A stretch of 64,000 nt of DNA from Acidihalobacter ferrooxydans. GTDB taxonomy: Bacteria; Pseudomonadota; Gammaproteobacteria; DSM-5130; Acidihalobacteraceae. Position 1 is the stretch's first letter. Every line of letters starts with the position of its first letter. The notes below the pieces were generated by a model that was given only the letters and a program-made list of their open reading frames with translations, ran no database searches and was not told where the DNA came from. Position numbers and translations under genes: made by a program. The stretch lies in assembly GCF_001975725.1 (NCBI RefSeq), contig NZ_CP019434.1, forward strand, positions 868,001 to 932,000, in the 5' to 3' direction. Shown here one piece after another: positions 4,266 through 6,865 of the stretch.

Positions 4266-4808
4266 TCATTCTACCGTGCGTACTTTTTCCACGCGTTCGA
4301 TGATGACGCTCTGCTGTTTTCTGTCGATCCGATAATACGGAATCGCAAGGTTGCGGGGTGCGGGCTGGAATTTCTGCACGCGACCGGCTGCATCGTACTG
4401 CGAGCCGCAGCAGGGGCAGGCAAAGCCGCAGCTGCTCGGGCAACCGCCAAACGCGATCGGGCAGCCGTCGAAGGTGCAATGATTGACCATAACCAGGAAT
4501 TCGGGATCTCGCGAGCGCCAGGGATTTTTCGCGTAGGCCGGTTGTTGCGAGTGCTGTGAATCCGGGTCGGCGAGGTTGGCGGTCTGCTGCTTCAGAGCGC
4601 TGATCATGCCTGCATCGCGGCGCAGCAGCAGGATGGGGTAGCCGTCCACATGGATGGTGCGGGTTTTGCCCGTGTCCAGATGGTTCAGCGAAAGTGCATC
4701 GGATTTCGGGGTGGCTGCGAGCACGCGTCCCGCGCTGCCGGCAACGGCCGCGCCGATTGCGAGACGCAGTACGTTGCGTCGCGCCAGAGAGGTGCGTTTA
4801 TCAGTCAT
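4266..4808 (-). CDS. Tat-exported Rieske-like protein lacking both His ligands
   Basis: A 180-residue protein with a twin-arginine signal (LARRNVLRLAIGAAVAG, residues 8-24). The second half follows the Rieske fold of ubiquinol-cytochrome c reductase: EFLVMVNHCTFDGCP, then FACPCCGSQYDAAGRV and QPAPRNLAIPYYR. A normal [2Fe-2S] Rieske centre uses Cys-x-His...Cys-x-x-His. Here position 113 is Phe and position 134 is Cys, while Cys111, Cys116, Cys131 and Cys133 are kept, with extra Cys123 and Cys127. The cluster, if any, must be ligated differently. The gene lies 67 bp downstream of the ferritin-like gene on the same strand, probably in one transcript. No cytochrome b or c1 gene is nearby, so it is unlikely to be a bc1 subunit. 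Confidence 0.75.
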   Translation of the reverse strand: MTDKRTSLARRNVLRLAIGAAVAGSAGRVLAATPKSDALSLNHLDTGKTRTIHVDGYPILLLRRDAGMISALKQQTANLADPDSQHSQQPAYAKNPWRSRDPEFLVMVNHCTFDGCPIAFGGCPSSCGFACPCCGSQYDAAGRVQKFQPAPRNLAIPYYRIDRKQQSVIIERVEKVRTVE

Positions 4809-4875: not shown

Positions 4876-5496
4876 TCAGATGAAGGCTACCGGCACGGGG
4901 TTCAGACCGAGCGCGCCGCGCAGCACGGCCCAGTGCATGGCCTCGTCGCCCTCGATACTGGCGGCGGCATGGGCCAGATCGGGCATGGTGAACTTCGGTA
5001 CCGTGCTCAGGTACGCCTTGGCCGCGCCTTCTTCCAGGCCGGCGGCATAGTGGAGCACGTCCGCCTGACTGTGCAGATTGCCGGCCGGAATGCCGTAGGC
5101 GGCGGCGAGTTTGCCGATGGGCGCGCTGAGCGGAGCTTTTTGCGCGACCGGCGTTGCGTTCAGTTCGGTGACGAGTTTTTTCAGCGCCGCGGCATGCTGC
5201 TTGTGCTGGCCCTGGAACTGGAGGGCCAGATCCAGCACCTTTTTGTCCTTGATCAGACCGCTTTCGGCGCCGACCTGATAGGCGGCGATGGCTTGATATT
5301 CGAGACCCAGTGCGACATTGAGCAGGGCCGCATTCTTGTTCTCGCTCATGCCGGTGGCCGCCATGCTGCCGCTGGCATTGGCGTTGGTGCAGCCGGCCAG
5401 AATGCCGGCAGCGGCGGCGCCGACTGACAGCACGGCGGTCGTGCGCAGAAAATTGCGGCGCGGCAGTTCGATTAAACGATCGTTTTCGGTGCTCAT
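4876..5496 (-). CDS. Tat-dependent ferritin-like domain lipoprotein
   Basis: A 206-residue protein. The N-terminus has a Tat motif (PRRNFLRTT) and hydrophobic core ending in lipobox LAGC, with Cys36 as predicted lipidated residue, so it should be folded in the cytoplasm and anchored outside it. The rest is a helical ferritin-like domain: NVALGLEYQAIAAYQ (Glu66), QFQGQHKQHAAAL (His98, His101) and a late DEAMHWAVLRGAL carrying Glu and His, which together could bind two metals. Ferritin-like proteins of this type occur in bacterial stress loci, but the substrate is unknown. It is divergent from an ECF sigma gene and followed by the Rieske-like gene, with GGGAGAAG just before the ATG. Confidence 0.8.
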   Translation of the reverse strand: MSTENDRLIELPRRNFLRTTAVLSVGAAAAGILAGCTNANASGSMAATGMSENKNAALLNVALGLEYQAIAAYQVGAESGLIKDKKVLDLALQFQGQHKQHAAALKKLVTELNATPVAQKAPLSAPIGKLAAAYGIPAGNLHSQADVLHYAAGLEEGAAKAYLSTVPKFTMPDLAHAAASIEGDEAMHWAVLRGALGLNPVPVAFI

Positions 5497-5527
5497 GGTA
5501 ATCTTCTCCCTTTGGAGTGGTTAATAG

Positions 5528-5547
5528 CGAGAGTTGCATGGCTCTCG
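5528..5547. promoter_or_regulatory. Inverted repeat in the divergent promoter region
   Basis: CGAGAG (5528-5533) and CTCTCG (5542-5547) are perfect inverted arms around an 8-bp centre, within the 78 bp between the ferritin-like gene and the ECF sigma gene. It may be an operator for either gene or a leader hairpin. I could not place convincing -35/-10 elements. Confidence 0.35.
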
Positions 5548-5574
5548 TAGGGCTGATTCGCAGGAGATCGCTGG

Positions 5575-6180
5575 ATGGATGCAGGGCAGGACACCGTGGC
5601 CGAAGCTGGCGTGGCCGCGCGCAATGCGGCGCTGGCCGATCTGCTCGCGCGCGTGGCGCTGCGGGATCGCAAGGCCTTCGAGACGCTCTATCGGGAAACG
5701 GCGCGGCATCTTTTGGGCGTTGTGCTGCGAATAGTCGATGAGAGAGCTGCTGCTGAAGATGTGTTGCAGGAGCTTTTCGTCGAGGTCTGGAGCAAGGCCG
5801 ACCGTTATCGGGTTGATCTTGCTGCGCCGATGACCTGGCTGCGCATGCTGGCGCAACGGCGCGCGATCGATCATCGCCGTCGGCGCACGGCGGCCGGCGC
5901 GCACCGGGTGGACGACGACACCGATCCTGACAGCCTGCAAGGCATGTCCGGATCGCCCGAATCGCTGAGTGAAGATGGGCTGTGGAACCGGCATTTGAAT
6001 GAATGCCTGGAAGAACTGCCCGAGGCGCAACGCGAAGTCGTGGTGCTGATTTATGTGCATGGCTGGACGCAGCAGGAATTGGTCGAACGGCAGGGCAGTC
6101 CGCTCGGGACGGTGAAAAGTTGGGCGCGTAGAGGGCTTCAGGCCCTGCGCGCCTGTGTAGAACGCATCTCGGATAGGTGA
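5575..6180 (+). CDS. ECF-type RNA polymerase sigma factor
   Basis: A 201-residue sigma-70 family protein of the extracytoplasmic function class. Region 2 spans FETLYRETARHLLGVVLRIV and AAEDVLQELFVEVWSKADRY, followed by PMTWLRMLAQRRAIDHRRRR (core binding, -10 recognition). Region 4 has LPEAQREVVVLIYVHGWTQQ and the recognition helix GTVKSWARRGLQALR. ATG 5575 has CAGGAG at 5561-5566. The next gene, 7 bp downstream, encodes a RskA-type anti-sigma factor, the usual partner. The divergent Tat-exported ferritin-like/Rieske-like pair is the most obvious candidate target, which is inference. Confidence 0.92.
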   Translation: MDAGQDTVAEAGVAARNAALADLLARVALRDRKAFETLYRETARHLLGVVLRIVDERAAAEDVLQELFVEVWSKADRYRVDLAAPMTWLRMLAQRRAIDHRRRRTAAGAHRVDDDTDPDSLQGMSGSPESLSEDGLWNRHLNECLEELPEAQREVVVLIYVHGWTQQELVERQGSPLGTVKSWARRGLQALRACVERISDR

Positions 6181-6187
6181 CAGGAAC

Positions 6188-6865
6188 GTGGATTGGAGCA
6201 ACGAACGCAGACGGGATGCACTGGCGGCCGATTACGTGCTCGGACTGCTGCAGGGGCGTGCGCTGGCGCGCTTCGAGCGGCGCATGCAAGAGGATACGGA
6301 TTTGCAGCGCCGCGTCTGGGCATTGCGCGAGCGTCTGGACCCCTTGCTGCAGGGCGAGCCACGCGAGCCTTCGGCTGCGGTCTGGCAGCGTATCGAGCAG
6401 GAACTCGGCTGGGCACCGAAGCGGCGTCCGTGGGCCTGGTTCGAGCGGTTATCGCTGGCCGCGGCCGTGTTCGCGCTGGTCGCGGCCATCGGTCTGGGCG
6501 TGTATGTGCAGACACGGCCCTCAACGCCACCGAGCGGGCGCATGCTGGCTGTGCTGCACAACACCGACAAGCGTCAGGTGTTGCGCGTGAATCTGGCCGC
6601 GGACGGGCGCGGCGTGACGGTGGTCGCGCTGCACCCGCTGACTGTACCGAAAGGGCGCAGTCTGGAACTGTGGGCCTTGCCCAAGAAAGGCGCGCCGATT
6701 GCCGTGGGTCTGCTGAATCCGAAGCCAGGGCAGATCCAGCACTACCCGTTGCATGCCGCCGTGGCAGAACTTGGCGGCTTTGCGGTCAGCGTGGAGCCGC
6801 CGGGCGGTTCACCCAAGCCGGTGCCGACCGGCCCGATCGTCTATCAGGGGGTGGCGATCAGCTGA
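6188..6865 (+). CDS. RskA-type anti-sigma factor
   Basis: A 225-residue protein with the anti-sigma domain in the first 90 residues (DALAADYVLGLLQGRALARF, then ERRMQEDTDLQRRVWALRER). A single membrane helix follows (LSLAAAVFALVAAIGLGVYV, about residues 97-116). The C-terminal RskA domain lies outside (MLAVLHNTDKRQVLRV, GRSLELWALPKKGAPIAVG, GGFAVSVEPPGGS). It should hold the preceding ECF sigma factor at the membrane until an envelope signal releases it. The start is GTG 6188, 7 bp after the sigma stop, with ACAGGAAC just upstream. No zinc-binding HxxxCxxC motif is seen, as is common in this subfamily. Confidence 0.9.
   Translation: MDWSNERRRDALAADYVLGLLQGRALARFERRMQEDTDLQRRVWALRERLDPLLQGEPREPSAAVWQRIEQELGWAPKRRPWAWFERLSLAAAVFALVAAIGLGVYVQTRPSTPPSGRMLAVLHNTDKRQVLRVNLAADGRGVTVVALHPLTVPKGRSLELWALPKKGAPIAVGLLNPKPGQIQHYPLHAAVAELGGFAVSVEPPGGSPKPVPTGPIVYQGVAIS

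Follow-up and report, generated by a model that had tools for sequence, protein, structure and literature searches.

A Rieske-fold protein of Acidihalobacter ferrooxydans with both cluster histidines replaced: a candidate three-cysteine site for a single metal ion

In a stretch of 64,000 nucleotides from Acidihalobacter ferrooxydans (positions 868,001 to 932,000 of contig NZ_CP019434.1; here called the window), the gene at 4266-4808 on the reverse strand encodes a Tat-exported Rieske-fold protein of 180 amino acids, starting with ATG, in which both histidine ligands of the Rieske cluster are replaced. The loss of both histidines is real. Our preferred reading, which we hold tentatively on the basis of sequence and of analogy with other metal sites, is that the altered loops form a natural site for one metal ion, built from three cysteines and possibly an aspartate.

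The replacements can be read directly from the DNA and from the alignment with other Rieske proteins. Codons 111-116 (4461-4478, reverse strand) are TGC ACC TTC GAC GGC TGC and encode the first loop as C111-T-F113-D114-G-C116, where Rieske proteins have C-T-H-L-G-C. Codons 131-136 (4401-4418, reverse strand) are TGC CCC TGC TGC GGC TCG and encode the second loop as C131-P-C133-C134-G-S136 in place of C-P-C-H-G-S. The four Rieske cysteines (C111, C116, C131 and C133) are kept and three are gained, C134 and the pair in C123-P-S-S-C127 (4428-4442, reverse strand); all seven cysteines of the protein lie within residues 111-134. The signal region (residues 1-31, RRNVL...VLA; 4716-4808, reverse strand; cleavage site putative) carries the Tat motif R-R-N-V-L, whose first arginine, R11, is invariant in an alignment with 40 relatives (A1). 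An initial annotation of this DNA had listed both altered loops, the kept and the gained cysteines and the Tat signal, and all of them are present. It had also named a sequencing error at both codons as a possible explanation. This was rejected: TTC (F113) and TGC (C134) are each at least two bases away from either histidine codon, so single-base errors cannot account for either replacement, and the published assembly of strain DSM 14175 was sequenced to a depth of about 355x with PacBio and about 13x with Illumina (PMC5477407).

Sequence and model both make the assignment to the bc1-family Rieske fold secure. It scores 100 bits against TIGR01416, the NCBIfam model of the bc1 Rieske subunit (cutoff 97.4), and 36.8 bits versus 20.3 for Pfam Rieske. 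The core of the predicted structure has a pLDDT of about 97; its best structural match is Thermochromatium tepidum PetA (7yr9_A, Z 22.4, rmsd 1.6), and the P. aeruginosa structure 8smr_C gives a Z of 21.8. Ten columns are invariant across the 40 relatives in A1, including C111, C116, C131, C133, G135 and D139, among them the loop-bracing pair C116/C133, for which a disulfide bond is predicted. The ligand set C-x-H ... C-x-x-H is absent, F113 and C134 standing at the histidine positions. With two of the four defining ligands missing, a Rieske [2Fe-2S] centre is unlikely. The gene is not accompanied by cytochrome b or c1 genes; its neighbours encode a ferritin-like protein, a sigma factor and an anti-sigma factor. 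The appropriate name is Rieske-fold protein with an altered site; the name Rieske iron-sulfur protein should not be used.

Judged by its sequence, the protein belongs to the soluble Rieske group of the genus as an old and divergent member and is no fresh mutant. The same genome encodes a soluble Tat Rieske protein of the canonical type (L002, CTHAGC/CPCHGS) and, elsewhere, the bc1 PetA (L003, CTHLCC/CPCHGS), followed by an ORF of 429 amino acids, apparently cytochrome b; two more soluble Tat Rieske proteins (L033 and L034) are encoded by a congener. The 4266-4808 protein is 44-48% identical to L002, L033 and L034 over nearly its full length, while these are 65-67% identical to each other. In the tree, it lies with the soluble clade on one side of a well-supported branch (98/97) and the PetA proteins lie on the other, though two long-branch rows also fall on the soluble side, a placement that we do not trust. 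With histidine-bearing kin at this distance, the change is neither a recent mutation nor a sequencing slip. The initial annotation had named close homologs with the usual histidines as a refutation that would expose the gene as a mutated pseudogene. This genome and its congener do have such homologs, but at this level of identity they show the origin of the protein, not that it is a pseudogene. Two further observations concern these relatives. In the first loop of L003 (1216-1911; C1:965392-965757 region), CTHLCC, an extra cysteine replaces the glycine of CTHxGC. The canonical soluble genes of L033 (906-3728) and L002 (1468-2769) are located directly before a response regulator gene, which in L033 is followed by a histidine kinase gene.

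The variant is known from one genome only. No close copy with the same motifs was found in the genome-contig scan, among 56 relatives or among 369 genomes of the class, where the motifs were read in the best loci. Among the matches listed in the plasmid search there were canonical-type petA relatives alone, all below 60% identity; the phage families contained no close homolog with these motifs, and the open-library literature yielded nothing relevant on natural histidine-less Rieske proteins. When the genomes of 84,980 species were scanned at the DNA level for CPCC-G-[S/T]-x-[F/Y]-D, 17 loci were returned, about nine of which encode Rieske-like CPCC proteins. The other eight are unrelated to Rieske proteins and include, as named by eye, three ParA/Mrp-like ATPases and one phosphoribosyltransferase-like ORF.

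The combination of C-[TP]-[FY]-D with CPCC is common to the 4266-4808 protein and three distant proteins, L065, L078 and L164, the last of which came from a search among Fibrobacterota relatives. Each of the four has an RR or lipoprotein export signal (read by eye). The starred tree branches require at least two origins of the motif; a single clade of the 4266-4808 protein with L065 and L078 was not trusted, since the branches are very long and the three are split in a second tree. All 96 distinct Rieske motifs collected here that have the usual second histidine also have the usual first one, which indicates that the double loss is more than chance. Asp at position 114 occurs in 4/10 proteins with C134 and in 0/96 canonical motifs (Fisher 4e-5), and Asp or Glu in 7/10 versus 1/96 His/His motifs; this background is small and consists mostly of bc1 proteins with Leu at 114, and the count was made after the pattern had caught the eye. 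Against the 15 canonical motifs without Leu at 114 alone, the values are 0.017 (Asp) and 0.002 (Asp or Glu). The enrichment of Asp114 in C134 proteins is therefore suggestive but no proof. Six C134 loci have His, Arg, Lys or Asn at 113, two of them with Gly at 114. A second CPCC group, in Alphaproteobacteria (L068, L072, L074, L076, L080, L070), has these residues (His, Arg, Lys or Asn) in place of the first histidine ligand or at its position, and no petBC genes in the neighbourhoods examined. The CTYDGC/CPCC protein of Fibrobacterota (L065, 4865-6885) is encoded directly 3' of a methionine sulfoxide reductase in which MsrA and MsrB are fused and which has a signal-like N-terminus.

In our preferred reading, the Rieske [2Fe-2S] cluster would no longer be held by the site. 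The loops would be braced by the canonical disulfide C116-C133 and by a new hairpin disulfide C123-C127, and C111, C131 and C134 would, probably together with Asp114 in the fourth ligand position, hold a single tetrahedral Fe or Zn in the manner of rubredoxin or a zinc ribbon. In the model, the first cluster loop is followed by a hairpin of strands 119-121 and 128-130; C123 and C127, located at its tip, most likely form a disulfide. Loading of the centre would take place in the cytoplasm, before Tat exports the folded protein. C111-x-x-D114 and C131-P-x-C134 have rubredoxin/zinc-ribbon spacing, a feature that was absent from the initial annotation. It is a resemblance only: where rubredoxin has two C-x-x-C knuckles, this protein has C-x-x-D plus C-x-x-C.

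Published structures and variants are consistent with such a site. C111/D114 and C131/C134 align with C42/45 and C61/64 of the Sulfolobus Rieske-type protein ARF, the positions of the triple mutant H44I/K45C/H64C, which according to the account of Iwasaki 2005 given in PMC2946596 has one iron in a mononuclear Fe(Cys)4 centre. Zn-loaded TtPetA (7yr9), the best structural match, carries one Zn on two cysteine ligands and two chlorides, and the chlorides touch the backbone at the equivalents of residues 114 and 134 (PMC10492824). The frequency of Asp114, the recurrence of the C-[TP]-[FY]-D/CPCC motif and the preservation of the rest of the fold, with its invariant columns and well-predicted core, point in the same direction. 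Against a mononuclear site it can be said that Asp binds metal more weakly than Cys does, and we know of no natural Cys3Asp site in a Rieske fold. The six C134 loci that have His, Arg, Lys or Asn at 113 are at odds with such a site, Leu at 114 dominates the background with which Asp114 was compared, and the protein occurs in one genome only. The host, strain V8 (DSM 14175), is an iron- and sulfur-oxidising halotolerant acidophile (PMC5477407), with its pH listed as 1.8 (1-3) (PMC9062700), conditions under which thiolates readily give up Zn or Fe.

The periplasm of such an acidophile favours disulfides over thiolate-metal bonds. A serious rival, if somewhat less probable than the mononuclear site, is that the protein is a metal-free Rieske scaffold. 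It would have the disulfide C116-C133 that all bc1 Rieske proteins share, C111-C131 formed after the loss of the cluster, C123-C127 as a clamp of the hairpin, and C134 free or swapping in; it would act as a binding or structural partner and would have inherited its Tat signal. Bacteroidota lipoproteins that lack both histidines (e. g. CTYQPNQAC/DVCCGS, CSSYQPAKQC/DPCSGS and CPNQPLSSC/VCACDD) indicate that the fold survives without its cluster ligands. Yet the number of cysteines is odd, the Tat signal is kept, and random loss of the histidines would not predict the pairing of Cys134 with Asp114 that is repeated in L065, L078 and L164. The initial annotation had seen here an altered centre or a disulfide-bearing scaffold and not simple decay; this fits the evidence, but the sequence does not separate the centre from the scaffold.

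The three cysteines C111, C131 and C134, with Asp114 or an outside ligand, could also hold a low-potential [2Fe-2S] cluster. In ARF, the H64C exchange by itself gives a low-potential Cys3His [2Fe-2S] cluster, and a [2Fe-2S] cluster was also assembled by a rubredoxin with three cysteines (variant C42A); however, in the present protein the first histidine is gone too, and in ARF H44C/H64C cluster assembly largely failed (PMC2946596), which makes this reading rather unlikely. That the gene is a decaying, functionless copy of a soluble Rieske gene is improbable. The genome does hold a canonical soluble copy and the bc1 PetA, and the variant is absent from the relatives searched, but the frame is open, the GC content by codon position (0.63/0.50/0.70) is coding-like, all fold motifs are kept, the identity to the soluble kin (44-48%) is below that among the kin themselves (65-67%), and the loop changes match independent cases. 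An all-cysteine [2Fe-2S] centre, also considered in the initial annotation, would need C123 or C127 to supply the fourth ligand. The number of cysteines would suffice, but such a centre is very improbable, since these two lie at the hairpin tip of the model, apparently away from the cluster loops, and occur in no other CPCC Rieske relative.

The gene neighbourhood offers a possible partner. Upstream, 67 bp before the Rieske-fold gene, lies the gene of a Tat-exported ferritin-like protein (Ferritin_2; 4876-5496, reverse strand). Residues E, HxxH, E and ExxH are conserved in an alignment of 14 such sequences, so the ferritin-like protein probably binds metal. In this Tat family, HxxH takes the place of the ExxH that is usual in ferritin-like diiron proteins, in 14 of 14 aligned sequences. 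A divergent intergenic region (5497-5574), probably a shared promoter region, separates the ferritin-like gene from the genes of an ECF-type sigma factor (5575-6180, forward strand; Sigma70_r2 and r4 matches) and an RskA-type anti-sigma factor (6188-6865, forward strand; RskA_C match). The same sigma/anti-sigma/ferritin-like cassette is present in another acidophile, on the 22-kb plasmid p2 of Acidithiobacillus sp. AMEEHan (L130, 3478-5411).

In 12 of 20 related loci a small c-type cytochrome gene directly follows the ferritin-like homolog, at a spacing of -16 to +23 bases; here the Rieske-fold gene takes that place, which supports a mononuclear site in a partner protein. The cytochrome-pair loci (L131, L133-L138, L140-L142, L146 and L149) likely encode a periplasmic redox pair. 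However, in the five most similar ferritin-like loci, which have sigma and RskA genes (L130, L139, L143, L144 and L145), no downstream cytochrome was found. This weakens a simple replacement of an operon cytochrome c by the Rieske-fold gene, and the case for an electron-carrier role from gene context is therefore modest. With a mononuclear site, the Rieske-fold protein may be a small periplasmic partner (redox or metal) for the ferritin-like protein, and the neighbouring sigma/anti-sigma pair may control its gene. The most far-reaching version, a speculation to which we give little weight, would be a Cys3Asp Fe (or Zn) protein that acts as rubredoxin-like electron donor of the periplasmic ferritin-like protein at about pH 2, i. 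e. a two-protein counterpart of rubrerythrin that evolved from a respiratory Rieske protein and is mirrored independently in other phyla.

If one metal is bound, nature would have made the same conversion from a Rieske to a rubredoxin-like centre as was engineered in ARF, and the control that loop residues exert over which centre a fold accepts would become directly testable. If the protein is metal-free, it would be a clear example of an iron-sulfur protein of respiration whose fold has been put to new use as a scaffold. In both cases, the protein passes the NCBIfam cutoff, and an automatic label of iron-sulfur subunit would be misleading.

With PetA, the bc1 Rieske subunit, the protein shares the fold (Z about 22), 36-38% identity, the four loop cysteines, Ser136, Tyr138, the Pro loop (PAPxNLxIP) and the Tat motif. 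It differs in that it lacks both histidine ligands, carries Asp at the quinone-side tip where PetA has Leu, has a short link after the signal and is encoded outside a petABC operon. The signatures LVMVNxCT and FDAAGRV/YDAAGRV are shared with the soluble Tat Rieske proteins L002, L033 and L034, which in contrast keep CTHxGC and CPCHGS and have other gene neighbours. Bacteroidota hold a broad and apparently uncharacterised set of Rieske-like lipoproteins (L091-L120) that have lost the histidine ligands in several ways. Those without both histidines (L092-L119) are comparable in their Rieske-like sequence, but they are lipoproteins with other loop lengths and residues, and CPCC occurs in L073 alone. 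Rubredoxins have the motif spacing C-x-x-C-G ... C-P-x-C-G, which the present loops resemble as C-x-x-[C/D]-G ... C-P-x-C-G, in another fold and with one Cys exchanged for Asp. As far as the secondary account describes it, the ARF triple mutant is similar in having a hydrophobic residue at the first histidine, a ligand-capable residue next to it (+1) and Cys at the second histidine, whereas the 4266-4808 protein is natural and exported, has Asp and not Cys at +1, and its metal site is a predicted one.
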